Below, one piece after another: positions 19,697 through 41,660 of a stretch of 46,539 nucleotides of DNA (within the stretch, counting starts at the first letter, position 1; every line of letters starts with the position of its first letter). The stretch is from Ignavibacteriaceae bacterium. GTDB taxonomy: Bacteria; Bacteroidota; Ignavibacteria; Ignavibacteriales; Ignavibacteriaceae. The stretch lies in NCBI GenBank assembly GCA_014860115.1, contig JACZKK010000084.1, forward strand, positions 1 to 46,539, in the 5' to 3' direction. The position numbers were made by a program, and so were the translations under genes. A model generated the notes under the pieces. That model was not told the DNA's origin. It did no database searches and worked only from the letters and a program-made list of their open reading frames with translations.

Positions 19697-19753
19697 AGTA
19701 ACCTCAAATGATACAAGCGATAAAAAAATATTAAGAAAGTTGAAAGGCTCATT

Positions 19754-23509: not shown

Positions 23510-23518
23510 TCCGTTACC

Positions 23519-26500
23519 TCATTTAATTTTTATCACTACAAACGTTACATCATCGTCAGGGTCTTGGCTATTGGTCCAGCTTCTGGCTTCCGCTCTTAAA
23601 TGTGTTATTATCTCTTCGGGTTCTTTCTTAGCCGATTCTTCAAAACTATTTCTTGCTCTTTTGTAACCGTAGATTTCATTGTTTTCATTTCGGAGTTCCG
23701 CAAATCCATCACTCATCAGTAATAGAGTATCGCCACTTTCGATTTTAAATTCTTTAATATCATAAGCGATCCCTTTCATTGCACCAAGGGGCATATTGTT
23801 AATAACAACCTCTTCGATTGATTGAGAGTTTTTTCTGTAAACAAATAACGGCGGCATACCGGCATTTGTAGTTATAATTTTATTATTGCTGATCTGCACA
23901 CAAGTTAGTGCCATCATCAATCTGCCAAGCTGCATATCTTTAATTGCCTCATTCGCATTTTCAAAGAATGGTTTAAGCTCCTTGTTCGTTCTGTCGGACA
24001 TAAAAAGCGATTTCATTATTGAAACCATCATCCCCGACATCATTCCATGTCCGGTTGCATCACCAAGAATTACTGTCAATGTTCCATCCATATGAACATG
24101 AAAATCATAATAATCACCGCCGACCTCGGTTGCTGTTTTCATAAATACAGCAATATCAAGATGCGCAAGGTTTGGAAGTGCTTTTGGAAGCATTGAAAGT
24201 TGAAGCTGTCTAGCTTCATCAAGCTCTTTTGTTTTTCTTTCATTCTCAAGCTGCAGGAATTTTTTATTTTCGTTTTCTTTTCTTCTCTCTAATTCATACT
24301 TCCTTACGTAGCCGAGCATTCCGACAAAACCGATAATATAAATTCCATACGCCCACCAAGTAAGCCAAAGGGGAGGATTAATTGTGAAAGAATAAAATTC
24401 CTCGTTTGTTTTTACTCCATTTGAAGTAATGCCGCGAACTCTGAAAGTATAATCGCCCGAAGGAAGATTTTGATATTCTGTAAAAGGGAGAACGGACGGA
24501 CGAGACCATTCTTTGTCAAACCCTTCCAGAAAATGTTCATAAGTTGTCTGGCGAGGGTCTCTGTAATTAAGAGCAGCATAATTAAACACAAACGAATTTT
24601 CTGAGTTTGAAAGAGTTTGAGGATATCTATAATAATAAAGCTGTTTGTTAACGCTAATAGAAGTAATCTTTAAGGGATAATTTTTTTGCTCACCCTTATA
24701 AATGTAAAGCCCGACGCCATTAAAAAACATAACCATGTTTCCAAAGCCATCAAGCGTAGAAGAAGAAGGCACCCCAGTGGCAATATTATCGTCAGTAGGA
24801 AATAGTTGGAACATACTGCCCTCTGTTTTTATTGAACCCAAAGGTGATGAGAAATAAACATTCGCCCTGAAATGATCAAGAACGGGATTTGAAAGATCAG
24901 CAGAAGGCAGCCCGTCTTTCTTAGTATAGAATCTTAAATTAGTTCCGTCAAAAATTACAAGCCCTCTGCCTCTAAGCCTTATATATAAATTATCTCCTGC
25001 CTGGATATCTGTTTTAGTACCCGCAACACTCGCTCCTTTTAAAATTCTGAAATCAGCATTGGCATTTACACTATCAATTAAATTCACAAAACTCTTTCCG
25101 TTAAATACATAGAAGCCCCCAACAGTTAAAAAGTACATTCCATTCTTGAGCTTACCAACATAGTGAAGCTGATCTGAAGGAACGTTCCAGCTTTCAGGTG
25201 GTTTTGTCCAGGACTTTCCATCATATAACATTATTTTAGAATGAGCAGAAGAAATATCCTTTATGGTCTCGGCAAATATTCCGATAAACCAAAGTCTCCC
25301 ATCGTTATCTTCAAGGAGATTTAACAAACGATATTTACTCTCATTATCTGAATTACTGAATGGAGATTTAATCTCTACAAATTTTTCACCATCAAATTTT
25401 CCCAGATAGTATTCGGATTCAACAAGCTTATCGGCGGCGGGTCTCACATAATTTTCCCAGGTATAAATATCACCATCGCTTGTTTCGAGTATATTTGATG
25501 TACTATAAGGCTTCCCGCTTTCTTCAGGAATACCCTTAAGTTTCAGAATCATTTCCCCGTCACTATTTAAAATCTTATTAGCCAGAGTAATTCCTTTAGC
25601 GGTTGCAATCCAAATTCGCTTTTGGGAATCCTGATAAGTTTTAAAGGAAACGTTACTAGCAAGCCCATCTTCTTCAGTAATTGTTCGCAATTTAACACCA
25701 TCCCAAACATTCAATCCAACGTTGTCAGTTCTTGCATAATCCGGAATTTCGCTATACGAATATGAAATCCAGACAAAACCATCATTGTCAGCGTGAAGAT
25801 TTGTGATACCGCCCTGTGTTAATAATAAGCCATCTTTTTTAGTGAGCATTCTGGAATAATTAGGAAAATATATTCCGAAACCCTTTGAAGTATTTAATAA
25901 GACCCCATCATCAATTTCGGTTCCGTAAAAGCCATTCAGCGCATCAAATTTGATCATCTTTTCATTGCTGAGTGAAAAGATTTGATCGGGATATTTTGAA
26001 CTTTGGTCCTCAATCGTTCCGGGCAAAACAAAGAACTCGGGAAAATATTTATTAGGTTTTGTAAAAAGAGCATTGGTAAATCGAAAATCTTTTATTTCTT
26101 TGCCAGATTTCAGATCTTTAAAATCATCCATTCCCTTCAGTATACCTGATGGTTTCCACGTACCTTTATCAAATTCATAAATAATGTTATTATTAGTATT
26201 GAATAACTCACCGTCAAAGAAAAAGGTACTTAAAAATAATTTGTTCAGATTTTTACTGTAATAAACTTGTAATGGACGCTGATCTGGCTTAAGCTGCTGC
26301 ATAATGTCAGTAAACTGGTGGAATTTATTGCCATCATACATTAGCACACCGGATTTATTAGCGGTCTCAACAACAAAACTGCCACCGTTGAAAGTAATCC
26401 ATGTATTTCCTTCTTTATCAACAAATGAACGCAAAGCATCAGGAAAGAACATTGCGCCTTTAAGTGTTATACCCATTGACTCATCTACTCTGACAAACTG

Positions 26501-27154
26501 TCCACTCTTATACAAAGCTATGTATGCTCCTTCAAAAGTTCTGGTGTTACTACCGGATGAATTAAATATCAGATCTCCATAAGGAGTTTCAATGAAATCA
26601 GTGGCATTATCAAGAGGAAAGTTAGTGGAATCAAAAACCGTAAACTTATCGTTTTCAAAATATGTTAATCCCCCATTATTTTTTTTATCAACGAACGGTG
26701 TTATGGATCCAATCCAGATGCGGTTTTTGCTGTCGGGCCTAATAAATGAAATTATCTGACCGGAAGATCCTTTTAAAACATATCCTTCGTTTTCAGTATA
26801 AACTTTAAACTGTTTTCCATCGAATGAAATAAATTTAGTAGGCGAGGCAAAGTACATTTTATTATTTGTTGAATCGTAGTACATCCTTTGCATAGAAGGC
26901 AGTCCAATATCGCTTCCAACCTCTTCAAATTCGTATCCATTAAATCTGTAAGTTCCTTCAATTCCGGAAATCCAAACGTATCCGTCTTTAGTTTGAATAA
27001 TATTTGCAATGTTCGTTGTAGGCAATCCCTCTTTGTTCGTGTACTCAATTAAATCAGCGTTTGCTTCTGTCTTTTGTTTTTGCTGTGCAACAGTCAATGA
27101 TGAAAAAACGAATAAAACCAGAATTATTAGATTTTTAAAAAATTCTAATGTCAT
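23519..27154 (-). CDS. divergent propeller-Y_Y_Y-TM-SpoIIE phosphatase receptor 2
   Basis: A 1,211-residue receptor: signal peptide to about residue 23, a long periplasmic region, Y_Y_Y (about 830-930), a membrane helix (about 932-955), and a SpoIIE PP2C domain (about 985-1211) with EVGGDYYDF, GDATGHGM, MSDGFAEL and DDDVTFVV. The periplasmic half is unlike its neighbours. Its blades follow a looser pattern, with short FDGxxF/YNGKSF units (for example MYDGNKFHQF, VFNGKSFVNL, IFDGTNLRFY) in place of NPxDPxSL...WIGT repeats, and it lacks the inserted module. The phosphatase is also less close to those of receptors 3 and 4. AAGGAAA precedes the ATG. It probably senses another kind of signal. Confidence 0.92.
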   Translation of the reverse strand: MTLEFFKNLIILVLFVFSSLTVAQQKQKTEANADLIEYTNKEGLPTTNIANIIQTKDGYVWISGIEGTYRFNGYEFEEVGSDIGLPSMQRMYYDSTNNKMYFASPTKFISFDGKQFKVYTENEGYVLKGSSGQIISFIRPDSKNRIWIGSITPFVDKKNNGGLTYFENDKFTVFDSTNFPLDNATDFIETPYGDLIFNSSGSNTRTFEGAYIALYKSGQFVRVDESMGITLKGAMFFPDALRSFVDKEGNTWITFNGGSFVVETANKSGVLMYDGNKFHQFTDIMQQLKPDQRPLQVYYSKNLNKLFLSTFFFDGELFNTNNNIIYEFDKGTWKPSGILKGMDDFKDLKSGKEIKDFRFTNALFTKPNKYFPEFFVLPGTIEDQSSKYPDQIFSLSNEKMIKFDALNGFYGTEIDDGVLLNTSKGFGIYFPNYSRMLTKKDGLLLTQGGITNLHADNDGFVWISYSYSEIPDYARTDNVGLNVWDGVKLRTITEEDGLASNVSFKTYQDSQKRIWIATAKGITLANKILNSDGEMILKLKGIPEESGKPYSTSNILETSDGDIYTWENYVRPAADKLVESEYYLGKFDGEKFVEIKSPFSNSDNESKYRLLNLLEDNDGRLWFIGIFAETIKDISSAHSKIMLYDGKSWTKPPESWNVPSDQLHYVGKLKNGMYFLTVGGFYVFNGKSFVNLIDSVNANADFRILKGASVAGTKTDIQAGDNLYIRLRGRGLVIFDGTNLRFYTKKDGLPSADLSNPVLDHFRANVYFSSPLGSIKTEGSMFQLFPTDDNIATGVPSSSTLDGFGNMVMFFNGVGLYIYKGEQKNYPLKITSISVNKQLYYYRYPQTLSNSENSFVFNYAALNYRDPRQTTYEHFLEGFDKEWSRPSVLPFTEYQNLPSGDYTFRVRGITSNGVKTNEEFYSFTINPPLWLTWWAYGIYIIGFVGMLGYVRKYELERRKENENKKFLQLENERKTKELDEARQLQLSMLPKALPNLAHLDIAVFMKTATEVGGDYYDFHVHMDGTLTVILGDATGHGMMSGMMVSIMKSLFMSDRTNKELKPFFENANEAIKDMQLGRLMMALTCVQISNNKIITTNAGMPPLFVYRKNSQSIEEVVINNMPLGAMKGIAYDIKEFKIESGDTLLLMSDGFAELRNENNEIYGYKRARNSFEESAKKEPEEIITHLRAEARSWTNSQDPDDDVTFVVIKIK

Positions 27155-27234
27155 AAAATTTTCCTTGTTAACTTGATTTTGAAATAGATTTGATAAACAA
27201 TCATTTCATCCGATATAATTGAAACTATAAAAAT

Positions 27235-30200
27235 TTATTTTACTTTTATCACAACAAAAGTTATATCATCATCCTGAACTCTGCCACTCATCCAGCTATC
27301 GCCTGCTTCGACCAGTTTTTCAATAATTGTATTCGGAGAGTTATCGATAATTTCATTAAAATGTTTTTTTACTCGTAAGTAGTCAAACATTTCTTCATCA
27401 GGGTTCATTTGTTCGGGCAATCCGTCGGTTAGAAGTAAAATTGTATCGCCGCTTTTTAAATCCATTTCAACTGTATTATATAAAGCGTTTCTCATTGCAC
27501 CTAAAGGCATTCCCTTAATAATAATTTCTTCTACCTGGTTAGTTTCTTTATGATGATAAAATACAGGCGGCATCCCGGCACTGGTAATCTCCAGATTATT
27601 TTTGTCAATCTTTAAATAGCTGAATGACATCAGAATTCTGCCAAGCTTGATATCCTTAATAACACGTGTGCAGTGTGACATAAATTCTTTTAATCCAAGT
27701 TTTGATGAGTCAGATGTGAAAAACCCTTTCATCAATGTTACCATAGTGCCTGCCTGTAAACCGTGACCGGTTGCATCACCAAAAGCCACATTCAGCACAC
27801 CATTTTCCTCTACAATAAAATCATAATAGTCTCCACCGACTTCAGTTGCAGTTCGCATAAATGCAGCTATTTCAAGATTTGGTAAAGTGGGTAATTCTTT
27901 TGGAAGCATAGATAGCTGTAGCTGTCGTGCTTCTTCAAGTTCTTTTGTCTTTCGGTCGTTTTCAATTTGAATAGCACGCTTTTCTGCCTCCGTAGCTTTT
28001 AACCGTAATTCATTTTCTCTAAGCTTTGTTTTTTGTTCGCGCCTGTTGATTTCAAACCTTCGCATTCCATATAAAAGGCTTAAGAAAGTAATTACATAAA
28101 TCGCATAAGCTATGTTTGTTCTCCACCATGGGGGAGTAACCTCAATAAACAATGTTCTTCCTTCTTCATTCCATATACCATCGTTGTTCGAGCCCGTTAC
28201 GATTAATTTATAATCACCGGGAGATAAATTTGTAAATGTTACCGTATGATCATTACCAAGCTGAATCCAGTTATCGTTGAATCCTTCCAATTTATATCTG
28301 TACCTGTTTTGGGAATTATTGTAATAGCTCAAAGCTGCAAATTGAAGAGTTACGATGTTATCCTTATAAGTCAACAGAATACTATCTCGTGCTGATATTC
28401 CCCGCTCAAAAATTGGTTTACCTTCTTCGTCATCGCTGTTATATCTTGTATAATTTGTATAAACAACAGGCGGGACATAAGAATTTTCTTTAACATCATC
28501 GGGACTAAAAACATTAAATCCATTTGGGCCGCCAAACAGCAGACGACCTGTTTTATAATCTTTAGCGAAAGCATTCTGATTGAACTCGTTCCCTTGTAAT
28601 CCATCCTGAACATAATAGTTTTTGAACGTTTCTTTCTCAGGATTGAATTTTGAGATCCCTATGTTTGTGCTTATCCACAAGTTGCCTTCTTCATCTTCAA
28701 GAATTCCGTAAATAAAATTATTTGCCAGACCATCTTTCTCGTCATAATTTATAAAAGTTTTATTTTCTTTCGAATACCTGCTTAAACCTTTGGTAGTACC
28801 AATCCACATATTTCCCCTACGATCTTTATATATTCTTATAATATTGTCATCGGCAATGCTTGCAGAGTCAGCGGGATTGTTTTTATAATAGGTGAACTTT
28901 TGATTATTCAGATTCAGCACATTCACTCCACCTCCGAATGTTCCTATCCATAAATCACCTTCATCATCTAATGCAAGCGACCAGGTTGCGTTTGAACTAA
29001 TTGAGGAAGGATCATTTTCTTTAAATTGATATCTAAAAAATTTACCCGTTGCCCTATCAAGTTTATTTAATCCGCCGCCGTAAGTTCCAATCCAAATATT
29101 ACCAGCATTGTCTTCTACAAGAGAGTAAACCCTATTATCGCTTAAGGAATTCGGATTGGATGGATTATTAGTGTAGTGAGTAAAAGCACCGGTTTGTGGA
29201 TTCAGTACATCTAAACCACTGCTAAAAGTTCCAATCCAGATATTTCCTGATCTGTCTTCTAATAATGATTGAATGGAATTACTTATGATAGTATTAGCGT
29301 TGGAAGGATTGTTATTATACAAAGTAAATTTCTTTTTACTATAATCAAATTTGTTTAACCCCCCGGTTCTTGTTCCAATCCAATAATATCCATCTTTATC
29401 AACGATCATTGAAAGCACGATATCATCACTCAGGCTATTTTTATTACCGGGATCGTGGGTATATTGTTCAATGTTCTGTGTTGATGGATTAAAATAATTA
29501 ATGCCGCTTAAGTTTGTACCAATCCAGATTAAGCCGCTTCGGTCTTCATAAATAGAGAAGACAAAATTATCATTTATGCTTGTCGGATCATTCGGATCGT
29601 TTTTATAATTTAAGAATTTATTTGATTTTGGATCGAACATACTCAAACCACTCCGGACAGTTCCTATCCATAAATTTCCGCGAGAGTCCTCAAAGATTGG
29701 CCAAACCCAATTATCAGCTAAGCTGTTTGGTTCACCAGGTTTATTTCTGTAATGAATAAATTTTCCTGTTTGCTCGTCAAGTCTATCAAGACCGTTAAAC
29801 GTTCCCACCCATAAATTTCCTGAGCGATCTCGGTAGACCGAATAAACCTTATCATCACTTAAGCTTGATGGATCGGAAGGATTGTGTTTAAATGTTGTGC
29901 TCTTGCTCGTCTTTGTATCAAGGCGCACCAATCCAGTTCCTTTGCTGAGCCCACCCGTCCATCTAATTCCCGATGATTCCTGAAGCAAAGCATTAACGCT
30001 ATTAACCCTGGCTCTTTCTAAGTCAACACTATCTTTAATAACAATTTGAAATGATTCTGATCTTGGGTTGTATTGATGAAACGTGCCGCTCTGAGTTTCA
30101 ATATAAAGTGTTCCGGATAAGTCTTCGTAAATTGAAAAAATAAAATTATCTGTTAAACTGGTAGAGTCACCCGGATTGTTTTTAAATACTTTAATATTAT

Positions 30201-30396
30201 AGCCATCGTATCTGTTAAGCCCATCCTGAGTACCGAACCACATAAATCCACTTCTATCCTGCTGGATACAGGTTACGGAGCTTTGTGATAAACCATCTTC
30301 AATGGTCAGGTGATTAAATACAATATGACTCTGCGGCAAATATTCAGAAGAGAAGAAGAGAAAAGAAACTATACAAAGCAGGAACACCCTGATCAT
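27235..30396 (-). CDS. propeller-Y_Y_Y-TM-SpoIIE phosphatase receptor 1
   Basis: A 1,053-residue receptor with the most regular propeller of the four: about a dozen blades of the form NPxDPxSLSDNxVxSIYEDRSGNLWIGT between residues 25 and 620. Y_Y_Y (about 650-755), a membrane helix (about 759-780), a charged coiled linker and a SpoIIE PP2C domain (about 825-1053) follow, with EVGGDYYDF, GDATGHGL, LTDGLPEQ and DDDITFVV intact. A signal peptide covers residues 1-22. Two seven-bladed propellers are the usual arrangement in this sensor class. The inserted module of receptors 3 and 4 is absent. It is the first of the four receptor genes and is separated from the upstream T9SS protein by a terminator, so the receptor block may have its own promoter in the 30400-30490 region. 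Confidence 0.94.
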   Translation of the reverse strand: MIRVFLLCIVSFLFFSSEYLPQSHIVFNHLTIEDGLSQSSVTCIQQDRSGFMWFGTQDGLNRYDGYNIKVFKNNPGDSTSLTDNFIFSIYEDLSGTLYIETQSGTFHQYNPRSESFQIVIKDSVDLERARVNSVNALLQESSGIRWTGGLSKGTGLVRLDTKTSKSTTFKHNPSDPSSLSDDKVYSVYRDRSGNLWVGTFNGLDRLDEQTGKFIHYRNKPGEPNSLADNWVWPIFEDSRGNLWIGTVRSGLSMFDPKSNKFLNYKNDPNDPTSINDNFVFSIYEDRSGLIWIGTNLSGINYFNPSTQNIEQYTHDPGNKNSLSDDIVLSMIVDKDGYYWIGTRTGGLNKFDYSKKKFTLYNNNPSNANTIISNSIQSLLEDRSGNIWIGTFSSGLDVLNPQTGAFTHYTNNPSNPNSLSDNRVYSLVEDNAGNIWIGTYGGGLNKLDRATGKFFRYQFKENDPSSISSNATWSLALDDEGDLWIGTFGGGVNVLNLNNQKFTYYKNNPADSASIADDNIIRIYKDRRGNMWIGTTKGLSRYSKENKTFINYDEKDGLANNFIYGILEDEEGNLWISTNIGISKFNPEKETFKNYYVQDGLQGNEFNQNAFAKDYKTGRLLFGGPNGFNVFSPDDVKENSYVPPVVYTNYTRYNSDDEEGKPIFERGISARDSILLTYKDNIVTLQFAALSYYNNSQNRYRYKLEGFNDNWIQLGNDHTVTFTNLSPGDYKLIVTGSNNDGIWNEEGRTLFIEVTPPWWRTNIAYAIYVITFLSLLYGMRRFEINRREQKTKLRENELRLKATEAEKRAIQIENDRKTKELEEARQLQLSMLPKELPTLPNLEIAAFMRTATEVGGDYYDFIVEENGVLNVAFGDATGHGLQAGTMVTLMKGFFTSDSSKLGLKEFMSHCTRVIKDIKLGRILMSFSYLKIDKNNLEITSAGMPPVFYHHKETNQVEEIIIKGMPLGAMRNALYNTVEMDLKSGDTILLLTDGLPEQMNPDEEMFDYLRVKKHFNEIIDNSPNTIIEKLVEAGDSWMSGRVQDDDITFVVIKVK

Positions 30397-30490: not shown

Positions 30491-30523
30491 TAACCCCTGG
30501 TCTAAGATAGAAACCAGGGGCTA
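30491..30523 (-). terminator. intrinsic terminator after the T9SS giant gene
   Basis: On the minus strand CCCCTGGT (30520-30513) and ACCAGGGG (30501-30494) pair in an 8-bp stem with an 11-base loop, followed by TTATTTCTTTTT. It lies just after the stop codon of the 1,984-residue protein and separates it from the receptor genes. Confidence 0.85.
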
Positions 30524-30530
30524 AAGGAAT

Positions 30531-33500
30531 TTACTTCATCAATATCATTTTCTTGGTTGACACATAAGAACCACTAATAATTCTATATATATAAATACCA
30601 CTTGCGAGCTGACTTGCGTTCCAGTTGACGCTGTAATAACCAGCTTCCATCTCCTGATCTACGAGATCGGAAACCAGATTACCCAGGATATCATATACCT
30701 TTAAGCTTACATGATTCTTTGCAGGCAATTGATAGTTTATTGTTGTGCTTGGATTGAACGGATTAGGATAATTCTGCTCAAGAGATATTTCATCAGGAAT
30801 TATTTGTGGTTCATCTTCACCGTTTTCAGGTTCTCCCGATTCTTTAGCCAGAGTATTATTTATGTAGTAAATCTTAGTGCTTCCCCCAATTTGGATCTCT
30901 CCATTTGTCCATAAAGCTCCTTTAATAATACAACTGGTTCCTAAAGTTATATTTCCAAGTGGACAATAAATACTTCCATTCCATTTACCGCTTCCACCCA
31001 GCTGGAAATAACCATGAGTTTCTAGATAAACATCATCTGGTCCTCCATTGAGTATTGTTGTTGTCAGGCTCGTTCCAAAATTAACATTTCCGGTTATGAA
31101 AATTCGGATTTTTCCATTTGCCACATTTAGGTTTAATTTTCCACTGCCGCCCATTGAAAACGACGTAAAGTAATAATCGCCAGAACTCAAATTAAGAGTC
31201 TTGGAGGTACCCAGATTAACACTGCCGTAAGAACCGGGGCTAAGAGTAGCATTTGATGTGATATTTGTTCCACCGGAGTTGAAAACTGTTGCAGGCGGAA
31301 GAGTTATTAAATTATATGATTGTGGAATCTGCGGCGTACCATTCTCTGTGATCACACCATAAATTATTGAGCTGCCACCAATGGATGCAGTTCCTGCCGT
31401 AGTTAAATTTCCGAATATTTTAACGGAAGTGCCAAGACTAACATTTCCCCCGGCATCAATATTTCCATTAACGTTTGTACTTCCACCAAGATCAACAAAA
31501 TTATTAGAAATAATGTTTCCACCAACTAAAACACTTGTGCCGCTATTAAAGTATCCACCACTATTTATATCACCATTAATTTGACTACTTCCGCCTAATT
31601 GAACATTTCCATTAAATGTGAGGTTGTTAGTACTAATGCTTGTTCCGCCGGTAAACTTTCCATTACCCCCAACACCTTCTGTAATAGAAGAGGATCCACC
31701 AATCTGAACATCAGCATTACCAACAACTTTTCCATCAAACACCTTAACACTGGTGCCAAGCGTTACCTTTTGATTAGCGAAGACCGGGTATGGAGGAAAT
31801 TGAACTATTGGCTCAACTGGTTCCTCGAATGGCGATATAAAAAATGAGTGTTCAGTTTGAATTACATATTGACTATTATTATTACTTCCGTTTCCAACAC
31901 TATCAGAAGCAATAACTTTTACATCATAATTTCCAGCCAGCGAAGTCTCAAGTGAAATGTTATAGGTACCGTCTTCAGTCAGTGATAAGAATCCCACAAC
32001 CACCTGACTGTCAGGCGAAGTTATTTGCAAACTAACTATAGCATTATTAACAGGGGTTCCAACTGTTTTTGTATCATCGCCTGTTTCACTTTTCTCACCA
32101 CCCTCAAATAACGTAGCTTCAAGATTTACCACCACAGGCATTGGATTGCCGTATTGATCACTTTCTAGGATATAGCGTTCTTTGTCAGATTTAAATTTGA
32201 GCACAAGATCAGCTTCATTACTCATGTATACACGAATAGGTTCAGGTGTTGTCGGCGCAACATTTTCTACGATAGCATATGTCCACTGACCAACTCCCGG
32301 GCTATTCACTCTGAAGTATTTATATGGTTTGCCATATGTAGCGGTTCCATCAAAAAATTCTACACCATACGGTGACGAACCGAAATTAGCTTCTGTAATT
32401 GCACCAGCTGGTAACACTCCTCCTTCACCAACTGTTTCACCCGGAGGTAATAATACAAGTTCATATTCGCTTCCCTGCCAGGATAAACCAAGTTCAAGAG
32501 TTCCACCCTGCCATTGCAAACCACCCTGCCATTGAAGTCCGCCCTGCCATTGTAATCCACCCTGCCATTGCAAACCACCCTGCCATTGTAATCCGCCTTG
32601 CCATTGCAAACCACCTTGCCATGAAAGTCCGCCCTGCCATTGCAGACCACCTTGCCATTGCAGACCACCATCAAAATATTCACTGCTTATTTCTTCAGAA
32701 AGATATGATATTTGGAGACCCAGTAATCGCAGCCAAATAATATTTACTGCTGTAGGAATTTCAGTTGAACTTGCAATTTCATAATACTCACCTTCGGTTT
32801 CTTGTGCCAACCAGCTCATCAAATCTTGTCCTGCTCTAAAATCTTCAAATCCCATTGTGTATATTTTTATTTCAGGATCAATACCAAGGTCAGTTATGAG
32901 AGAAAATGGAGACACTTCACCAGCGCTAAATAAGATCATAACTTTTTTGTTTGTGCCTGAACCCGAGTTCAATATTGATTGAGCTGACATTATTCGATCG
33001 GCAAGATTTCCGGTTGAATTTGGCTCTATGAGATTGAGTGTGTTCAGCTTTGCGTTGAAGTCATCTCCAAGCGGCTCAGTGGAAGAACCGTTTACCCAGC
33101 CAACTCTGTCGCCAATTCTCATCTTAGTAATTAGTTCAAGCGCAGCATTCTTTGAAGGTATAAATCCGTTTAGTACTTCCGTAGATGTAAAATTACTTGT
33201 ACCATCGAACACTAAAACGATATCATAATAAATATCACCAAGGTTTTTATAAATATAATTTATACCGCCAACATCATATCTTGTTATGTCTAACTGATTT
33301 GATAGCCAGTCTGGATCTGAAGGACCAGGATGTAAACTGTTCTTATATGTCTCTCCAACATCAATCCTTCCATACATTGTTGCCAGCTGGTTATTATTTT
33401 TCATTTCAAGCAAATATGCGAAATCACCCGGATTATATAAATCTCCCAAACCACCGTAATGACCGGCTTCATGCGTGGTTACATTTTGAACATCCAGTTT

Positions 33501-36485
33501 ATCAGAAGATCCATCAGTTGCCCAGTAAAATTGTCCCAGTCCTGCGAGAGAAATTGGTTCTCCGTTAAATGCAAGATCTACGTCGATCAACTCACCATTT
33601 AGTGCGTTGTATCTGACTCTGGTTACTGCAACTACATTTGTTGGGGCTTCGATTGAATCTTCCCACATTTCACTTGTTGGATACCAGACAACATTGTTTA
33701 TTCCATCCGCATTTCCAAAAGCTTGACCGGAATTCGTGACGCTTAAGTCTTTTCTTACATAAGTTAATTGTTCCAGTGTACTCCAGGTATCGAAGCCAGT
33801 TTCAACTGCTTCAGCAAAACCGGAAGGCTGTTGTTCGCCAATAGTAGTTGAAACCGAACCGTAAATCTCATAATCACCATTCCCATTTTTCCAGTGAAGT
33901 GGAATTCCGGCAAGAGTAGTATTTACCAAATAGTGATCACCCTCATCAGTAGCCCTTTCAATTGCAAAAGAGAATTCGGAAGAGCTTAAAGGATTATTAT
34001 AAAAATCTAAACTTGTTATAGTTGCACCAATAACTTCTTCAGAAGTAAGCACCGCATCTTTTAGATTTGCGAGAAAATCTGCTTCACCTATAATATCTGC
34101 AGTTGCATCAACTTCACCAAGATAGCGTTTGCCTTCTCTGCTATTCATACTTGAGTTAGCGAAGAATTGAATTCTATAATTCTGTTCAGGTAAACCGAGG
34201 AGAGTTCCTTGAATAGATGTTCCACCCCTTATTTCGGGTAGTGCTGTCTCGTCTTGCCAGGTGTAAAAAGTATTGAGTGTCGGGTACACTTGTGAATCAT
34301 TTGCACCAGCAGCAAGCTCAATTCCCAAGGAAGTGTTGTTATAGATTGAATTACTCAGAATAGAATTATTGTTTCCAGATGCAACAAAAACACCAGGAGC
34401 GCCATTATTAAAAATCGAATTGTTGCTCACATTGTTAGCATTTCCATTAATAATTACACCTTTACTTGCATTATCAGAAATTTCATTTTCAGAAACGATA
34501 TTGCTATCGCTGGCTTCCAATGAAATTCCGAAAGCTAAATTTCCAGAAACAAGATTTCCTTCGAGAGTTACTGAGCCAGTAGTTATAGAAATTCCACCAA
34601 GAATATTAACTCCAACTGTGTTATTAACGATTTGATTCCCAGTGCCCGAAGTAACAAATATTCCTAAGCCGGCATTTTCAGAAACGGTATTTCCGGAAAG
34701 AGTATTCCCGCTTGCACTATTAAGGGATATTCCAGCACCTTGATTTTGAGTGACTGTATTTTCTGTTAAACTTCCGGTACTATTTGAAATAGAAATTCCA
34801 CCAAGGGCATTTGTCCCAACAATATTATTGTTGATTTGGTTTGCAGTACTGCTATCGACAAATATTCCAAAACCGGTGTTAGCCATAATAGTATTCCCCG
34901 ATAAAGTTCCGGTTCCGTTGAACAATATTAATCCATCACCGTTGTTGGTCTCTACCAGATTATTTAAAATCTGATTATTTGTTCCGCCATTTACAGAAAT
35001 TCCGAAACCGGTATTTCCACTTATGTTGTTTCCATTAACCGGCCCGGTACTGTTGGATATAAAAATCCCACCAAGGGTATTATTTGCAATGCTGTTATTT
35101 GATATTTGATTTCCATTTGCATCCATCACAGAAATTCCATAACCGGCATTTCCTGTAATGGTATTTGCAGCAGCTATCCCAATCAGATTATTTATTGCCC
35201 CGGCATTAATTGAAATTCCATTGCCGATTGATCCAGTGATAGTATTGTTATTTATACTGTTTCCTTGTGAGCTTAACGATATTCCCGAAATTTGATTTGC
35301 CGAGATAGTATTATTTCCCGCAGAAGAGAGCGTTAAACCAAAACCCGATGAACTATTAATTTTTAGTCCTTTCACAGTGCTTCCACCAGCCGTAATTGTT
35401 AATCCTCCAAAAGCTCCTTGTGTTTCGACAATCGGCAAACCACTATATCCCCTTTGTAAAGTTCCATCCAAGATAACCGGACCAGAAATATTTGGTAACG
35501 CAGAAGAAGGCGAAATTGTTAGCGGGGAAGATCCGGCTTTATAAAAATAAATTTTTTGCAGATTGGCCAAAGCATTTGCTTCCTGAATGGCAGATCTCAA
35601 AGTAACCACACCATTGCCTGCATCTGCGACTTCATTTCCAGGATTTAAATCCGGTAAATCCAAAGTTGAATTTACAACGAAGAATGGCAAAGGATTACTT
35701 TTCACAACTTCATTTATGTCTGCCAGCCTCAGATAATTTTTCTTCGATGAAAAATCTTTTAAATAAGGAGTGCCACTGTATGAATTTATTTCTGTGAAAG
35801 ACCATCTTCCGTATAAATACGAAATAAGTGAAGAAGGAATTGACGATGATGGATCTCCACCACCATTACAACTCGATATCTGACTTGAGGTTAGTGCCTT
35901 ATTAAAAATTCTTGCTTCATCAATCAATCCATTGAATTTATCATTATCGTGTTTTCCTATGAACAATCCCGTTCCTGTGGTATAAGTTGGACCAAGCGAA
36001 GTAGTTTTAGTATCTGCCAAGACACCATCATAATAAAGTTTTAAGACTTGTCCATCATAAGTTCCTGTTAATCTAATCCAGCGGAAGGCAGGAAAAGAAG
36101 GAAAATTAGTAGCGGTACTAACTGGCGCACTGTTTCCAACAGTAAAGAAAGCAGTATTGTCTTTTACATACATATAAAATGAAGTTCCGCCAACCACAAC
36201 TCTTTTAATGACCGGCATCAGAACACCCGGGTTATCTCCCAATAAATATATCCAGGCATCAACAGTTATTTTTTTACTGCTTGAAGAAGTAGAATTATTA
36301 AAGTATTTAAACCCCAATTGATTTGCATCTCCATTTATTGGGGCTCCATCCAGGATGTAGGAAGAACTTGTTGTTCCGTTAAAAATGAAAGACTTGTTGG
36401 TCCCGGTTGCAAAAGAATCATTGCTTGCAACGAGAATTAACAATAAAAGGGTGAAGTAAAGGTTTGTGCTGAAATTTTTTTTCAT
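30531..36485 (-). CDS. giant T9SS-secreted LamG / beta-helix / metzincin / VWA protein
   Basis: A 1,984-residue exported protein. In order it has a signal peptide (1-26), a LamG-like domain (about 40-210) and a LRSAIQEAN motif like CSLREA proteins near 290. A right-handed beta-helix of N-rich GNxISGN repeats (about 300-730) follows. A matrixin-like protease segment (about 870-1060) has HEAGHYGGLGD (His1005, Glu1006, His1009, third ligand Asp1015) and a following ATMYG Met-turn. Then come a VWA-like domain (about 1085-1260), nine GGLQWQ repeats (about 1274-1327), Ig-like sandwiches, a bactofilin-like region of LGTS/IGGSS repeats (about 1590-1800) and a type IX sorting domain with YPNPFNPST near 1907. 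Protease followed by VWA and sandwich recalls the CLCA family. GAGGG precedes the ATG. Confidence 0.85.
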   Translation of the reverse strand: MKKNFSTNLYFTLLLLILVASNDSFATGTNKSFIFNGTTSSSYILDGAPINGDANQLGFKYFNNSTSSSSKKITVDAWIYLLGDNPGVLMPVIKRVVVGGTSFYMYVKDNTAFFTVGNSAPVSTATNFPSFPAFRWIRLTGTYDGQVLKLYYDGVLADTKTTSLGPTYTTGTGLFIGKHDNDKFNGLIDEARIFNKALTSSQISSCNGGGDPSSSIPSSLISYLYGRWSFTEINSYSGTPYLKDFSSKKNYLRLADINEVVKSNPLPFFVVNSTLDLPDLNPGNEVADAGNGVVTLRSAIQEANALANLQKIYFYKAGSSPLTISPSSALPNISGPVILDGTLQRGYSGLPIVETQGAFGGLTITAGGSTVKGLKINSSSGFGLTLSSAGNNTISANQISGISLSSQGNSINNNTITGSIGNGISINAGAINNLIGIAAANTITGNAGYGISVMDANGNQISNNSIANNTLGGIFISNSTGPVNGNNISGNTGFGISVNGGTNNQILNNLVETNNGDGLILFNGTGTLSGNTIMANTGFGIFVDSSTANQINNNIVGTNALGGISISNSTGSLTENTVTQNQGAGISLNSASGNTLSGNTVSENAGLGIFVTSGTGNQIVNNTVGVNILGGISITTGSVTLEGNLVSGNLAFGISLEASDSNIVSENEISDNASKGVIINGNANNVSNNSIFNNGAPGVFVASGNNNSILSNSIYNNTSLGIELAAGANDSQVYPTLNTFYTWQDETALPEIRGGTSIQGTLLGLPEQNYRIQFFANSSMNSREGKRYLGEVDATADIIGEADFLANLKDAVLTSEEVIGATITSLDFYNNPLSSSEFSFAIERATDEGDHYLVNTTLAGIPLHWKNGNGDYEIYGSVSTTIGEQQPSGFAEAVETGFDTWSTLEQLTYVRKDLSVTNSGQAFGNADGINNVVWYPTSEMWEDSIEAPTNVVAVTRVRYNALNGELIDVDLAFNGEPISLAGLGQFYWATDGSSDKLDVQNVTTHEAGHYGGLGDLYNPGDFAYLLEMKNNNQLATMYGRIDVGETYKNSLHPGPSDPDWLSNQLDITRYDVGGINYIYKNLGDIYYDIVLVFDGTSNFTSTEVLNGFIPSKNAALELITKMRIGDRVGWVNGSSTEPLGDDFNAKLNTLNLIEPNSTGNLADRIMSAQSILNSGSGTNKKVMILFSAGEVSPFSLITDLGIDPEIKIYTMGFEDFRAGQDLMSWLAQETEGEYYEIASSTEIPTAVNIIWLRLLGLQISYLSEEISSEYFDGGLQWQGGLQWQGGLSWQGGLQWQGGLQWQGGLQWQGGLQWQGGLQWQGGLQWQGGTLELGLSWQGSEYELVLLPPGETVGEGGVLPAGAITEANFGSSPYGVEFFDGTATYGKPYKYFRVNSPGVGQWTYAIVENVAPTTPEPIRVYMSNEADLVLKFKSDKERYILESDQYGNPMPVVVNLEATLFEGGEKSETGDDTKTVGTPVNNAIVSLQITSPDSQVVVGFLSLTEDGTYNISLETSLAGNYDVKVIASDSVGNGSNNNSQYVIQTEHSFFISPFEEPVEPIVQFPPYPVFANQKVTLGTSVKVFDGKVVGNADVQIGGSSSITEGVGGNGKFTGGTSISTNNLTFNGNVQLGGSSQINGDINSGGYFNSGTSVLVGGNIISNNFVDLGGSTNVNGNIDAGGNVSLGTSVKIFGNLTTAGTASIGGSSIIYGVITENGTPQIPQSYNLITLPPATVFNSGGTNITSNATLSPGSYGSVNLGTSKTLNLSSGDYYFTSFSMGGSGKLNLNVANGKIRIFITGNVNFGTSLTTTILNGGPDDVYLETHGYFQLGGSGKWNGSIYCPLGNITLGTSCIIKGALWTNGEIQIGGSTKIYYINNTLAKESGEPENGEDEPQIIPDEISLEQNYPNPFNPSTTINYQLPAKNHVSLKVYDILGNLVSDLVDQEMEAGYYSVNWNASQLASGIYIYRIISGSYVSTKKMILMK
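32503..32664 (-). repeat. nine tandem 18-bp units encoding GGLQWQ
   Basis: Nine contiguous 18-base units, each starting CCACC or CCGCC on the plus strand (for example CCACCCTGCCATTGCAAA at 32503), encode GGLQWQ eight times and GGLSWQ once. Units differ mainly at wobble positions, and near-identical variants alternate, as expected from unequal crossing-over or slippage. Because the unit is a multiple of three, copy-number change keeps the frame. Confidence 0.95.
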
Positions 36486-36554: not shown

Positions 36555-37049
36555 TTAGTCATTTATATAGTTTTTAATTTGAGTTTTAAGAGAATTGATC
36601 TTAACATTCGAAGTTGTAACCTTCTCTCCAGTTTTGGGATCGTTGATTACATTTATTTTTCCTTGTTCACCATTCAAAACTTTATAATCCGTACTTCTGT
36701 CATCCTTTTCCAGAAAAACCAAAACTTCTTCATTCTCTTCAAATCTAGGCATGTGAGAATATAGCTCGCCAACATCTCCCACTTCTCCACCGGGATAGCT
36801 GACAACTATTGAATTTCCGGTATTGCCGCCCTTCAAGTATTCGTCAACCTGAATGGTTGCTTGAGTATAAATTCTTGTTTTGTTTTCGTTCCAGTTGGAG
36901 TTTTGTTGTGTTACCTTGCCGGTAATAATAACATCGGCGTTTTGGGAAAGATTTTTTAATTCGGATTGGCTTGTCTGAGCCAAGCCGTAGAAGAGAAATC
37001 CACTAATTATGACAGTGACTAATGCCCAACTTATAATTCTAATTTGCAT
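36555..37049 (-). CDS. small secreted or membrane-anchored protein of unknown function
   Basis: A 164-residue protein with an N-terminal hydrophobic segment (about 5-24) that is either a signal peptide or an anchor. The rest forms a beta-rich domain with SQNADVIITGKVTQQNSNW, RIYTQATIQVDEYLKG, SYPGGEVGDVGELYSHMPRF and EEVLVFLEKDD. I recall similar conserved proteins (GKV...RIYT...GG..G......P.F..GEE...FL) in several phyla, without a known role. It lies 69 bases upstream of the giant T9SS protease-like gene on the same strand, so the two are probably co-transcribed. A role as partner or inhibitor of the protease would fit but is inference. Confidence 0.7.
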   Translation of the reverse strand: MQIRIISWALVTVIISGFLFYGLAQTSQSELKNLSQNADVIITGKVTQQNSNWNENKTRIYTQATIQVDEYLKGGNTGNSIVVSYPGGEVGDVGELYSHMPRFEENEEVLVFLEKDDRSTDYKVLNGEQGKINVINDPKTGEKVTTSNVKINSLKTQIKNYIND

Positions 37050-37285: not shown

Positions 37286-37481
37286 GTTTATATTTTACAC
37301 TGTCAATTGTAGACACAATACGCTACTCTCTCTTTCCACAAATAATATAAAAATTCAACGATATCTATTGGTATTTATTGTTAGCTTTATATGTATTTTG
37401 CAATCAGGAAAAATTACCACGTATTTCCAATAAATTATTTCATCTTCACTTGTATTTGATCGGTTACAATTGCCAGGGGCT

Positions 37482-40400
37482 ATGCTAAAGGGAAGCAGAT
37501 TAATCAAATTATTTAATAGACCATCCGAACATTCACGGACTATTTCCTTGATTCAATTATTGCTGATTGTGCTAATTGGATCAGCAAGTTATCCGCAACA
37601 GGATATCCTCAAATTCAAAAAACTAACAAGCAATGATGGTCTGTCACAGAATTTTGTTTCTACGATTCTTCAGGATAAAAATGGCTTTATGTGGTTTGGG
37701 ACAAAGGACGGATTAAACAGATACGATGGATATGAGTTTAAAGTTTATCGCTACAATCCGTTTGATACAACCTCACTTTCGGGAAATTTTATTTCTGCCG
37801 TATTTGAAGACTCAAAAGGAAGATTATGGGTTGCATCAAAAACGCTTGATCTTTTCATTCCTGAAAAAGATGCATTTAAAAGAATAGTTTTGAAAATTCC
37901 AACTAATAAAACTGACAACACAATTAATGTCAGCAAAATTACATCAATTACTGAGGATAAAAACGGATTGATTTGGTTAGGTACAAATGATGGTCTGATT
38001 AGTTATGATCCGCAAACAAATTCCTCGAGGATGTTTTACCAGACACGGGATAAAAGCTCACCTCTCTCTTATAATCTGATACTATCATTAAGTAGTGACG
38101 ATTCTCTGCTCATCGTAGGTACACAGAACGGAATGAAATTATTGAATCTTGATTCTCTCAAAAAAGATAAAATTGAATTCATAAAAATTTTACACGAAGA
38201 TGCAAAAGGACTTTTAACCAGCAGACGAACGATTCTTAGTCAGTTTCGCGCTTCTTCAAATCTTATATATTCCGGCACACCTGCTGGTCTGATCAAGATA
38301 GATCTTAGCACAAGGAAATCAGAATTTATTCCTTATAAAGGCTATTTGTTCTTTCCATTCTGGATGAATAGAATCTTAGCAATTGTTCAAGACAAGAACA
38401 GTAATCTATGGCTTGCCTGTTCAGGTGGTTTAGTTGTTTATAATCCTGTTCGAGATAGTTTCAAATATTACTTTCATGATCCAAAAGATGACCAATCGGT
38501 AAGCTTGAACAACATCACAAGTTTGTTCGCTGATCGCGGTGGTAAAATATGGATCGGGACTGCCGGGAAGGGAATAAATCTGTTCGATCAAAACAAAAAA
38601 GAATTTTCTTTGTACAACGGTTTGGTGGATAGAGAACCGTTCAAAACTTCGTTTAGCGTAACTGCAATTTTATCTGAGAGCGATAATGTTTTATGGATTG
38701 CCTCTCAACAGAAATTATTTCGGTTGGATAGAGTAACCGGAGAATACAAACACGTTAAATTATTATACGGTCCCGAGGGAGAAATAACTTCTATTCTAAA
38801 AGACAAAAAACAAAACCTTTGGGTAGCCTCCAGCGGAGGTCTTCATAAAATAGCCAGTGTGGGTGAAAAGATCACTTATTTCAGTAATAATCCGACAAAT
38901 CCCAATTCACTCACGGATATGTTTGTCAAACTGCTCTTTATTGACAGTCACGGAAATTTGTTTGCTCTCAACTCAAGGTACCTGAGCAAGTTTAACGAGG
39001 GTTCGAATACATTCACACATTATGAACTAAATTTTTTAAACAAAAATGATTTCGCACCGATAATCAGATGTATTTATGAAAGCGAAGATGGCTCACTCTG
39101 GTTTGGCTGGTCTGGGGGGCTTGTTAAATATAATTTAGAAACGCAAGAAAAAATCTTATACACCCATCAGCCGGGTAACCACAAAAGTATCAGCAACAAT
39201 GAGATACTCACGATTTGCGAAGATCCAGCTCAACCCAAAAAATATTTGTGGGTCGGAACGCAGGGCGGTGGCTTAAGCAGATTAAATCTTGAAGACGGAA
39301 CATTCTCTAATTTTTCTGTAATTGATGGTCTTCCAAATAATGTTGTTTATGGAATTCTTTCTTCAGGGAGTGAGCTTTGGCTGAGTACAAACAATGGGTT
39401 GTGCAGAGTTACAACCGATAAATATGGCACACCAACTTTCAGAAATTATGACGTAACAGATGGGCTCCAGGGAAATGAATTCAATACCGGTGCTTATTCC
39501 AAAAGCAGTTCCGGTGAATTATTTTTTGGCGGACTGAACGGAGTGAATGCATTTTTCCCTACTAATATTCGGGATAATATTTTTATCCCGCCAGTTGTAT
39601 TCACCGAGTTAAAATTTTTAAAGGGTAATTTAGATGGAGAAAGCAACTCACAACTTCGAATAAATACTGTAATTAATAATTCCGAGGTAACAATTCCTTA
39701 CTCACAAAATTCATTTACAATTCAATTTGCTGCACTAGATTATACGGCAACTGAGAAAAACAGTTATATGTATAAGCTAATACCGATTCACAATGAATGG
39801 ATAAATCTTGGAACACAACGAAACGTCACATTTACTGAGCTTGGCGTCGGCGAGTACGAGCTCATTGTGAAAGGATCAAATAATGATGGCATCTGGAACG
39901 AAGAAGGTGCTTCATTACAAATAATAATAGCCCCGCCCTTTTGGCAAACTATCTGGGCTTATGGTGTATATGCTGTTTTATTTATGATGATTCTTTACAT
40001 AATCAGAAGATATGAATTGAGCAGACTCCGGTTAAAGAGCAGACTCAAAATCGAATCGTTCGAGACTCAAAAACTTAAAGAGCTTGATGAAATGAAATCG
40101 GGTTTCTTTGCTAACATATCGCACGAGTTCAGAACACCGCTAACTTTGATACTTGGTCCGGCAGAACAGCTTGAGCAGAGCGAAACAGACAATAACAAAA
40201 AAGAAAAGCTTCACACCATAAAAAGCAGCGCAAACCGTTTATTGAGATTGATAAATCAAATACTTGATCTTTCAAAACTTGAAAAGGGTAAAACCAAATT
40301 ACATTGTGAAGAAGGAGATCTCGTAATGTTTTTAAAAGGAATAACAAATTCCTTTTCAAGCATTGCAGAAAGAAAGAACATTACCATGCAATTAGTCAGC

Positions 40401-41660
40401 GAAGTTTCAAATATTCAAACGCGTTTCGATAGAGATGTTTTTGAGAAAATATTCTTTAATCTTATTTCAAATGCATTTAAGTTCACTCCCAATGGTGGCA
40501 GCATAGAAGTGAAAATTAATAAGCCCACATCAGGTGATTTTTGTAAAATTACCGTTAAAGATTCGGGTGTTGGGATTGATGATAATGATCTGCCGAAGGT
40601 GTTTAATAAATTTTATACTGTTGAAAACATTAATGGATTTACTGAGCAGGGCAGCGGAATAGGTTTGGCTTTAGTAAAAGAACTAGTGGTGCTTCATAAA
40701 GGAAGCATAACTGTTGAAAGTAAGATCAATGAAGGTTCAACATTCACTGTTTATATTCCTGTTGGAAAAGATTTTCTGAAGGAAGATGAATTTATAAATG
40801 TAAAATCAAAAGATTTTTCTATTTCTGAAAGCAAAACAAACGAATTTATAGATGAAGAGCCTTTACAGGTTCAGCCTGAAAACGGATTTGATGATGAGAA
40901 ACTTGCCGAAGATCCGGTAATTGCGTTGATCGTAGAGGATAATCCCGAGTTAAGAAACTACATAGCGTCAAACTTACAATCTGATTATAAAATAATAGAA
41001 GCCTCCACAGGCAAGGAAGGTTGCGAGAAGGCGGTTGAAATAATTCCAGACATTATAATCAGCGATATCATGATGCCCGAAATGGATGGATACTCATTAT
41101 GCAAAAAACTAAAAGCCGATGAAAGAACCAGTCACATTCCGATTATTTTATTAACCGCAAGGGCAAGCGAAGAAGACAAGATAACTGGACTGGAAACAGG
41201 CGCAGATGATTATCTTACAAAACCCTTCAGTTCCAAAGAGTTGTCACTAAGAGTTAGAAATTTGATTGAGATTCGACAGACACTCAGGAAGAAATTCAGT
41301 AGTTCTCTTATAATCAAACCCAAAGAAATTGTAACTGGTTCTGTTGATAAAAGCTTCCTGGAGAAAGCGATGAAGATCGTTGAAAAAAACATCAGCAACG
41401 ACAAATTTTCAGTTGAAGATTTCAGCAGCGAAATGAATCTTAGCCATTCGCAGCTACACAGGAAACTCAAAGCTCTTGTTAATCAATCTGCAATTCAATT
41501 TATCCGATCCATTCGTATGCAAAGAGCTCTTGAGTTGCTTCAGGGTAATTCAGGAAATATTGCTGAAATAGCCTGGCAGGTAGGATTCGGAGATCCAAGC
41601 TACTTCACAAAAACTTTTTCCAAACATTTTGGTTACCTTCCCTCCGAAGTTAACAAATAA
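37482..41660 (+). CDS. hybrid two-component system protein: propeller, histidine kinase, REC, AraC
   Basis: A 1,392-residue hybrid regulator. A membrane signal segment (about 25-41) is followed by two sets of propeller repeats starting GFMWFGTKDGLNRYDGYEFK. Y_Y_Y (about 736-816), a membrane helix (about 822-845) and HisKA with FFANISHEFRTPL (His881) come next. The HATPase region (about 980-1093) has NLISNAFKFTPNGG, DSGVGI and GSGIGLALVKEL. A receiver (about 1145-1257) has phosphoacceptor Asp1195 in SDIMMPEMDG, and an AraC-type DNA-binding domain (about 1297-1392) ends the protein. It senses a periplasmic ligand and acts directly as transcription factor, usually on adjacent genes, so either the secreted-protein cluster downstream or the divergent block is a likely target. 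A TTG at 37470 is an alternative start. Confidence 0.95.
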   Translation: MLKGSRLIKLFNRPSEHSRTISLIQLLLIVLIGSASYPQQDILKFKKLTSNDGLSQNFVSTILQDKNGFMWFGTKDGLNRYDGYEFKVYRYNPFDTTSLSGNFISAVFEDSKGRLWVASKTLDLFIPEKDAFKRIVLKIPTNKTDNTINVSKITSITEDKNGLIWLGTNDGLISYDPQTNSSRMFYQTRDKSSPLSYNLILSLSSDDSLLIVGTQNGMKLLNLDSLKKDKIEFIKILHEDAKGLLTSRRTILSQFRASSNLIYSGTPAGLIKIDLSTRKSEFIPYKGYLFFPFWMNRILAIVQDKNSNLWLACSGGLVVYNPVRDSFKYYFHDPKDDQSVSLNNITSLFADRGGKIWIGTAGKGINLFDQNKKEFSLYNGLVDREPFKTSFSVTAILSESDNVLWIASQQKLFRLDRVTGEYKHVKLLYGPEGEITSILKDKKQNLWVASSGGLHKIASVGEKITYFSNNPTNPNSLTDMFVKLLFIDSHGNLFALNSRYLSKFNEGSNTFTHYELNFLNKNDFAPIIRCIYESEDGSLWFGWSGGLVKYNLETQEKILYTHQPGNHKSISNNEILTICEDPAQPKKYLWVGTQGGGLSRLNLEDGTFSNFSVIDGLPNNVVYGILSSGSELWLSTNNGLCRVTTDKYGTPTFRNYDVTDGLQGNEFNTGAYSKSSSGELFFGGLNGVNAFFPTNIRDNIFIPPVVFTELKFLKGNLDGESNSQLRINTVINNSEVTIPYSQNSFTIQFAALDYTATEKNSYMYKLIPIHNEWINLGTQRNVTFTELGVGEYELIVKGSNNDGIWNEEGASLQIIIAPPFWQTIWAYGVYAVLFMMILYIIRRYELSRLRLKSRLKIESFETQKLKELDEMKSGFFANISHEFRTPLTLILGPAEQLEQSETDNNKKEKLHTIKSSANRLLRLINQILDLSKLEKGKTKLHCEEGDLVMFLKGITNSFSSIAERKNITMQLVSEVSNIQTRFDRDVFEKIFFNLISNAFKFTPNGGSIEVKINKPTSGDFCKITVKDSGVGIDDNDLPKVFNKFYTVENINGFTEQGSGIGLALVKELVVLHKGSITVESKINEGSTFTVYIPVGKDFLKEDEFINVKSKDFSISESKTNEFIDEEPLQVQPENGFDDEKLAEDPVIALIVEDNPELRNYIASNLQSDYKIIEASTGKEGCEKAVEIIPDIIISDIMMPEMDGYSLCKKLKADERTSHIPIILLTARASEEDKITGLETGADDYLTKPFSSKELSLRVRNLIEIRQTLRKKFSSSLIIKPKEIVTGSVDKSFLEKAMKIVEKNISNDKFSVEDFSSEMNLSHSQLHRKLKALVNQSAIQFIRSIRMQRALELLQGNSGNIAEIAWQVGFGDPSYFTKTFSKHFGYLPSEVNK

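Follow-up and report, generated by a model that had tools for sequence, protein, structure and literature searches.

Serralysin with AprI and karilysin with potempin A are systems in which the gene of a protease lies next to the gene of its inhibitor. The CLCA proteins are defined by the CLCA_N domain and typically show the order CLCA_N, VWA, DUF1973, Fn3 (Lenart et al. 2013, PMC3650047); the same paper mentions a Teredinibacter protein of CLCA architecture that has Peptidase_M10 instead of CLCA_N. The locus described here was found in a contig of an Ignavibacteriaceae bacterium (JACZKK010000084.1, assembly GCA_014860115.1), analysed in full as a stretch of 46,539 nucleotides (the window). Its giant gene had originally been predicted, from the sequence alone, to encode a T9SS cargo with a CLCA-like order of domains. 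With a probability of about one half, the locus can be explained as a whole by a protease held in an adhesive T9SS scaffold, a cognate small partner and a downstream sensor. The architecture, folds, conservation and gene linkage on which this explanation is built were computed, and from them we infer that the protease is active, that the partner inhibits it, that the downstream protein is a sensor, and what the scaffold domains do.

The open reading frame at 30531-36485 (minus strand) encodes 1984 amino acids. All the motifs on which the original prediction was based are present where it had placed them (HEAGHYGGLGD at residue 1005, ATMYG at 1035, DIVLVFDGT, the start of the VWA domain, at 1088, GTYNIS at 1506, and the sorting-tail motif LEQNYPNPF at 1902). 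The chain is composed of a signal peptide, LamG, beta helix, metzincin, VWA, hexapeptide array, beta sandwiches, beta-solenoid domain and sorting tail. The LamG plus beta-helix composition proposed for the N-terminal half is clear from Pfam matches: the LamG/concanavalin-like domain covers residues 66-204 (35874..36290, minus strand; PF13385, E 1.9e-20) and the right-handed parallel beta helix about residues 360-730 (34296..35408, minus strand; PF13229, E 5.2e-44, with PF05048 and TIGR03804). The proposed T9SS type A sorting tail is equally recognizable at residues 1906-1981 (30543..30770, minus strand; PF18962 (Por_Secre_tail), E 8.2e-11, and TIGR04183), and the T9SS translocon SprA is present in the source genome. 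By these two features, the tail and the translocon, the giant protein is predicted to be a T9SS cargo.

Relatives were collected from close genomes and the contigs JANWIS010000078.1 (Ignavibacteriaceae) and CP070707.1, and later by sampling the phylum and the class more broadly. The core of the domain set recurs in many related genomes, with a metzincin followed by a VWA domain in 27 loci besides the window. Together with the M10-for-CLCA_N architecture of PMC3650047, this partly overtakes the earlier remark that no described protein with such a set was known. In loci L081 and L088 the giant gene is present in two frames, with the break near the end of the VWA domain or just after it; faulty assembly, decay or slippage close to the repeats may be the cause. 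In locus L018 (5600-6429) the LamG part is apparently out of frame or interrupted, and the stop-to-stop frame begins after it.

The matrixin-type metzincin domain spans residues 848-1086 (33228..33944, minus strand) and is supported by a family profile, AF2 and fold comparison. For the full window protein alone, both the metzincin and the VWA domain stay below Pfam reporting. Among the aligned members, Pfam Matrixin is matched in 9 of 11, and a 45-sequence family profile of the metzincin domain hits MMP-8 over the full length of its catalytic part (E 8.5e-14). With 11 sequences, AF2 modelled the metzincin poorly in a run on residues 846-1562 (most blocks with pLDDT <50); the good model (pLDDT 93.2, pTM 0.92) came from the 45-sequence alignment of the metzincin domain alone. 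Its nearest solved folds are karilysin (Z 15.8, 2.8 Å over 156 residues; chain 8b2q_A, from the entry titled in the PDB as the karilysin/potempin A complex) and MMP-8 (Z 15.3), the leading rows of the comparison, karilysin and the MMPs, being tied. Structure prediction around His1005 had been set beforehand as a test of the metzincin-like segment, and the segment passes it: the sequence and the model agree on a predicted matrixin-type metzincin fold.

The zinc motif HEAGHYGGLGD (residues 1005-1015; 33441..33473, minus strand) provides an Asp as the third ligand, and the Met-turn ATMYG is found at residues 1035-1039 (33369..33383, minus strand), with a nearly invariant Met. The motif has the form HExGHxxGLxD in the multi-domain members, while several single-domain relatives have His as the third ligand; HExxH is kept throughout the alignment, and every sequence that covers the position of the third ligand has Asp or His there. 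The M10A motif HExxHxxGxxH has His in the place where the window protein and its multi-domain relatives have Asp, and the protein is consequently described as a matrixin-like Asp-zincin and not filed as M10A proper. The conservation of these residues makes it likely that the predicted matrixin-type (M10-like, Asp-zincin) protease is active. No cysteine is located near the protease of the window, and thus, unlike in the matrixins, there is no cysteine-switch propeptide.

The VWA domain follows at residues 1086-1256 (32718..33230, minus strand). This part was well predicted by AF2; its similarity to vWF A domains reaches TMt 0.70 and that to chains of the VWA fold Z 18.6. Pfam VWA is matched in 4 of the 11 aligned members, and among relatives the best match, in L076, has E 6.3e-15. 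The VWA assignment, the second point on which the original prediction was open to refutation, holds on these grounds. The MIDAS is degenerate: the complete set (DxSxS, Thr, Asp) is not found, as the first Asp is kept and the last one is replaced in all rows of the MIDAS table except L019. Beta-sandwich-like segments occupy residues 1333-1560 (31806..32489, minus strand), with the conserved segment A4/A8 and strands in the model; their Pfam matches are weak and of the Ig/filamin/MG2 type (Big_6, filamin, MG2). The proposed order of metzincin, VWA and beta sandwiches is real, the metzincin and VWA being made firm by the Pfam matches of the relatives and the AF2 folds. The PitA/SpaC pilus adhesins, top Foldseek matches of the long model, were discarded (rmsd >26).

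This order is the part of the CLCA likeness that stands; the kinship is not supported. CLCA_N (PF08434) has no match in the window protein or the A1 members at E up to 1, nor in five relatives at E 0.1; it has none in 395 genomes either, in a search where the positive control gave no match either and which hence does not show its absence from the phylum. The profile search proposed against CLCA and M10-type peptidases thus gave the matrixin match to MMP-8 and nothing for CLCA_N. The cysteine-rich segment expected after the protease is missing, with no Cys in residues 846-1560. The VWA domain is no closer to that of CLCA1, whose match (6pyo, E 8.1e-6) stands behind better ones, than to the domains of collagen VI, integrin and vWF. 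Membership in CLCA was rejected on these four counts (CLCA_N, protease type, Cys-rich part, VWA), and judged by sequence the likeness is at most one of shared domain order. The same observations render rather improbable a bacterial protein of the CLCA type, in which the metzincin would cut its own chain beyond the VWA domain and the released halves would act apart as in CLCA1, even though the domain order is the same and a CLCA architecture with Peptidase_M10 is mentioned for Teredinibacter (PMC3650047).

Between the VWA domain and the sandwich lies a GLxWQG array of 9 tandem units of 18 bp (32502..32669, minus strand; TRF), with a tenth copy at the start of the sandwich. Most relatives have 2 to 9 units, and in a few the array is lost or unrecognised. 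Synonymous change within the arrays is high and amino-acid change low (pS 0.73 and pN 0.074 in the window), which indicates purifying selection on the GLxWQG peptide. The x residue is identical in all units in 19 of the 22 arrays of at least 3 units and varies among species (Q, N, Y, S, T, A). The majority x of the own array is matched by 145 of 152 units, compared with at most 76 in 2000 shuffles, in which species kinship was ignored. Near-uniform within species and different between them, the array illustrates clearly how repeats within one protein change in concert while purifying selection acts on them. Its role can be guessed at as that of a rigid or ligand-binding beta spacer.

The C-terminal half contains a DUF7305/bactofilin-like beta-solenoid domain at residues 1563-1880 (30846..31799, minus strand). 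The label bactofilin-like, given to it originally, is approximate: the window's own copy matches Bactofilin weakly (E 0.029), while the family match is to DUF7305 (15 of 18 aligned C-terminal domains). A DUF7305-type domain is present in 16 of the 27 other metzincin-VWA loci, counted among those in the tree, and, by reading of the sequence, seven close relatives have a helical segment in its place. The window falls with strong support inside the clade with helical C-termini, so that its DUF7305/bactofilin-like half is secondary, put back or acquired later. Homology of this half to the DUF7305-type family is read from a score of 31 bits, against at most 6.3 for shuffles (HMMER filters off; low-complexity sequence). 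A C-terminal half unique to the window was ruled out by the DUF7305-type domains of distant relatives. Chimeric assembly is unlikely, judging from the contig alone, which carries the whole frame without interruption.

Upstream of the giant gene, a small secreted partner of 164 aa is encoded (36555..37049, minus strand), with a signal-peptide-like N-terminus and no cysteine. It has no named family at the cut-off, NCBIfam gave nothing useful, and no inhibitor family is matched at the cut-off. In a BLAST of the neighbouring ORFs of all loci, homologues were found upstream, on the same strand, of 24 out of 24 giants having upstream sequence. In L018 and L027, where the N-terminal frame of the giant is broken, the partner gene is at a distance upstream (829 bases in L018). 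In locus L086 (1309-3007) two tandem copies of the partner gene precede one giant. The partner also lies upstream of single-domain matrixins (L028, L092, L094, L095, L097-L100), which have only the protease domain in common with the giants, and it is fused N-terminally to the metzincin in L045, L101, L102 and L104, the last of these fused proteins ending in a dockerin. In L144-L147, from another family of the phylum, it is directly upstream of giant ORFs of 3314 to 4163 aa with a metzincin match deep inside. A profile of the partner detected it in 43 of the 345 genomes from the phylum that were searched, with a single copy in the genome of the window. A reverse test was made on 35 independent loci found by this profile, none of them used in building it: 30 show a metzincin link (19 fused, 11 directly upstream of a metzincin ORF, four of these ORFs being 3314-4163 aa long), and in 5 no metzincin was seen. 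Linkage and fusion to metzincins across such differing architectures leave the protease domain as the shared element.

The signals for the fold of the partner are weak, none of them reaching a cut-off, and hint at OB-type families with a possible NtA/TIMP-like fold. Of 38 members, 10 match NtA (at best E 0.0029, below the Pfam cut-off), the profile reaches agrin NtA structures at E about 0.45, the Pfam match to DUF4131 is below the cut-off, and the hhalign comparison with TIMP-2 is not significant (Prob 3.8). The N-terminal-cysteine mechanism of TIMP cannot apply, the partner having no cysteine.

From its association with the metzincin, the partner probably controls the protease, be it as a cognate inhibitor, by keeping it latent or by helping it to fold. 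If it were instead a chaperone for the secretion or assembly of T9SS cargo, and not a protease inhibitor, it would also have a signal-peptide-like N-terminus without a sorting tail and would lie upstream of a T9SS cargo, as the partner does in most loci. Such a role is nevertheless unlikely, as the metzincin linkage or fusion persists when the other architecture differs, including in the dockerin-ending L104, and the single copy in the genome of the window does not fit a general T9SS factor. The association bears also on whether the metzincin could be vestigial or mainly structural, in a large adhesin where only LamG, the beta helix and VWA matter. The MIDAS has decayed family-wide, so some domains of the protein do lose active residues. 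The metzincin differs from it in its conserved HExxH, its Asp or His third ligand and its nearly invariant Met-turn, and the partner tracks the metzincin and not the other domains; we regard a vestigial metzincin as quite unlikely.

Downstream of the giant gene, a sensor phosphatase of 1053 aa is encoded (27235..30396, minus strand), with the Pfam domains Reg_prop (propeller), Y_Y_Y and SpoIIE. Its orthologues, about 43-77% identical, are found directly downstream in 21 of about 23 loci; no sensor was found in L083 and L089, the sequence of L019 is masked at this place, and in several further loci the contig stops short of it. The two genes are separated by an intrinsic-terminator-like hairpin (30491..30523, minus strand; a 13-pair stem, then a T run). 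The region 15935-30396 (minus strand) contains four consecutive large ORFs (1253, 1251, 1211 and 1053 aa), all with Reg_prop, Y_Y_Y and SpoIIE, and only for the 1053-aa one were orthologues tied to the metzincin gene seen. A divergent ORF of 1396 aa (37470-41660, plus strand) resembles the propeller sensors, with 43% identity to L022 12765-16955 and about 32% to the metzincin-linked sensors.

In the explanation favoured here, of a scaffolded protease with partner and sensor, the giant would be a surface-exposed or secreted T9SS cargo, whose large adhesive scaffold carries a matrixin-type protease. In this scaffold, LamG and the beta helix may bind a surface or glycan, and the VWA domain and sandwiches may present or brace the protease. 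The partner would most likely inhibit the protease, keep it latent or assist its folding, and so shield the periplasm until the cargo leaves through the T9SS; the N-terminal position of its domain before the metzincin in other genomes would be pro-domain-like. The propeller-SpoIIE protein probably detects some effect of the proteolysis and relays a signal into the cell. The terminator-like hairpin between the giant and sensor genes, the loci L083 and L089 and the five of 35 partner loci without a metzincin count against this explanation.

Tentatively, and with clearly lower confidence, the locus may belong to a widespread, unnamed bacterial system, in which an MMP-like metzincin is paired or N-terminally fused with a dedicated small OB/TIMP-like control protein, and of which one branch forms part of giant T9SS adhesins that are coupled to a propeller-SpoIIE sensor. 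If this were true, bacteria would possess a parallel to the MMP/TIMP-type control of animals, based on a protein family of its own. In any case, a loose CLCA likeness is replaced by a defined, conserved gene module, and the linkage of the unannotated partner domain to matrixin-like proteases is strong enough across the phylum for a direct test as inhibitor, pro-domain or chaperone.

In comparison with known systems, the window protein shares with the CLCA proteins (CLCA_N, Cys-rich, VWA, DUF1973, Fn3) the order of protease, VWA and beta sandwiches, but it has another protease family, no Cys-rich part, a degenerate MIDAS, a LamG/beta-helix N-terminus and a T9SS tail. The Teredinibacter protein (M10, VWA, DUF1973), compared by its mention in PMC3650047, likewise carries an M10-type peptidase where CLCA_N would stand in a CLCA-like architecture, and its description includes neither a T9SS tail nor a hexapeptide array. 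With karilysin/potempin A (8b2q) and serralysin/AprI, the locus has in common a secreted metzincin and an adjacent gene for a small secreted protein; in contrast to potempin A and AprI, the small protein of the window matches no inhibitor family at the cut-off used, and its role as an inhibitor is putative. With the matrixins MMP-8, MMP-13 and karilysin (MEROPS M10A) the similarity extends over the whole catalytic domain, with HExxHxxGxx and the Met-turn in common and the same fold (Z about 15, 2.4-3.5 Å over about 155 residues), whereas the third zinc ligand is His in the matrixins and Asp in the window protein, where the domain is embedded in a multi-domain cargo of 1984 aa.
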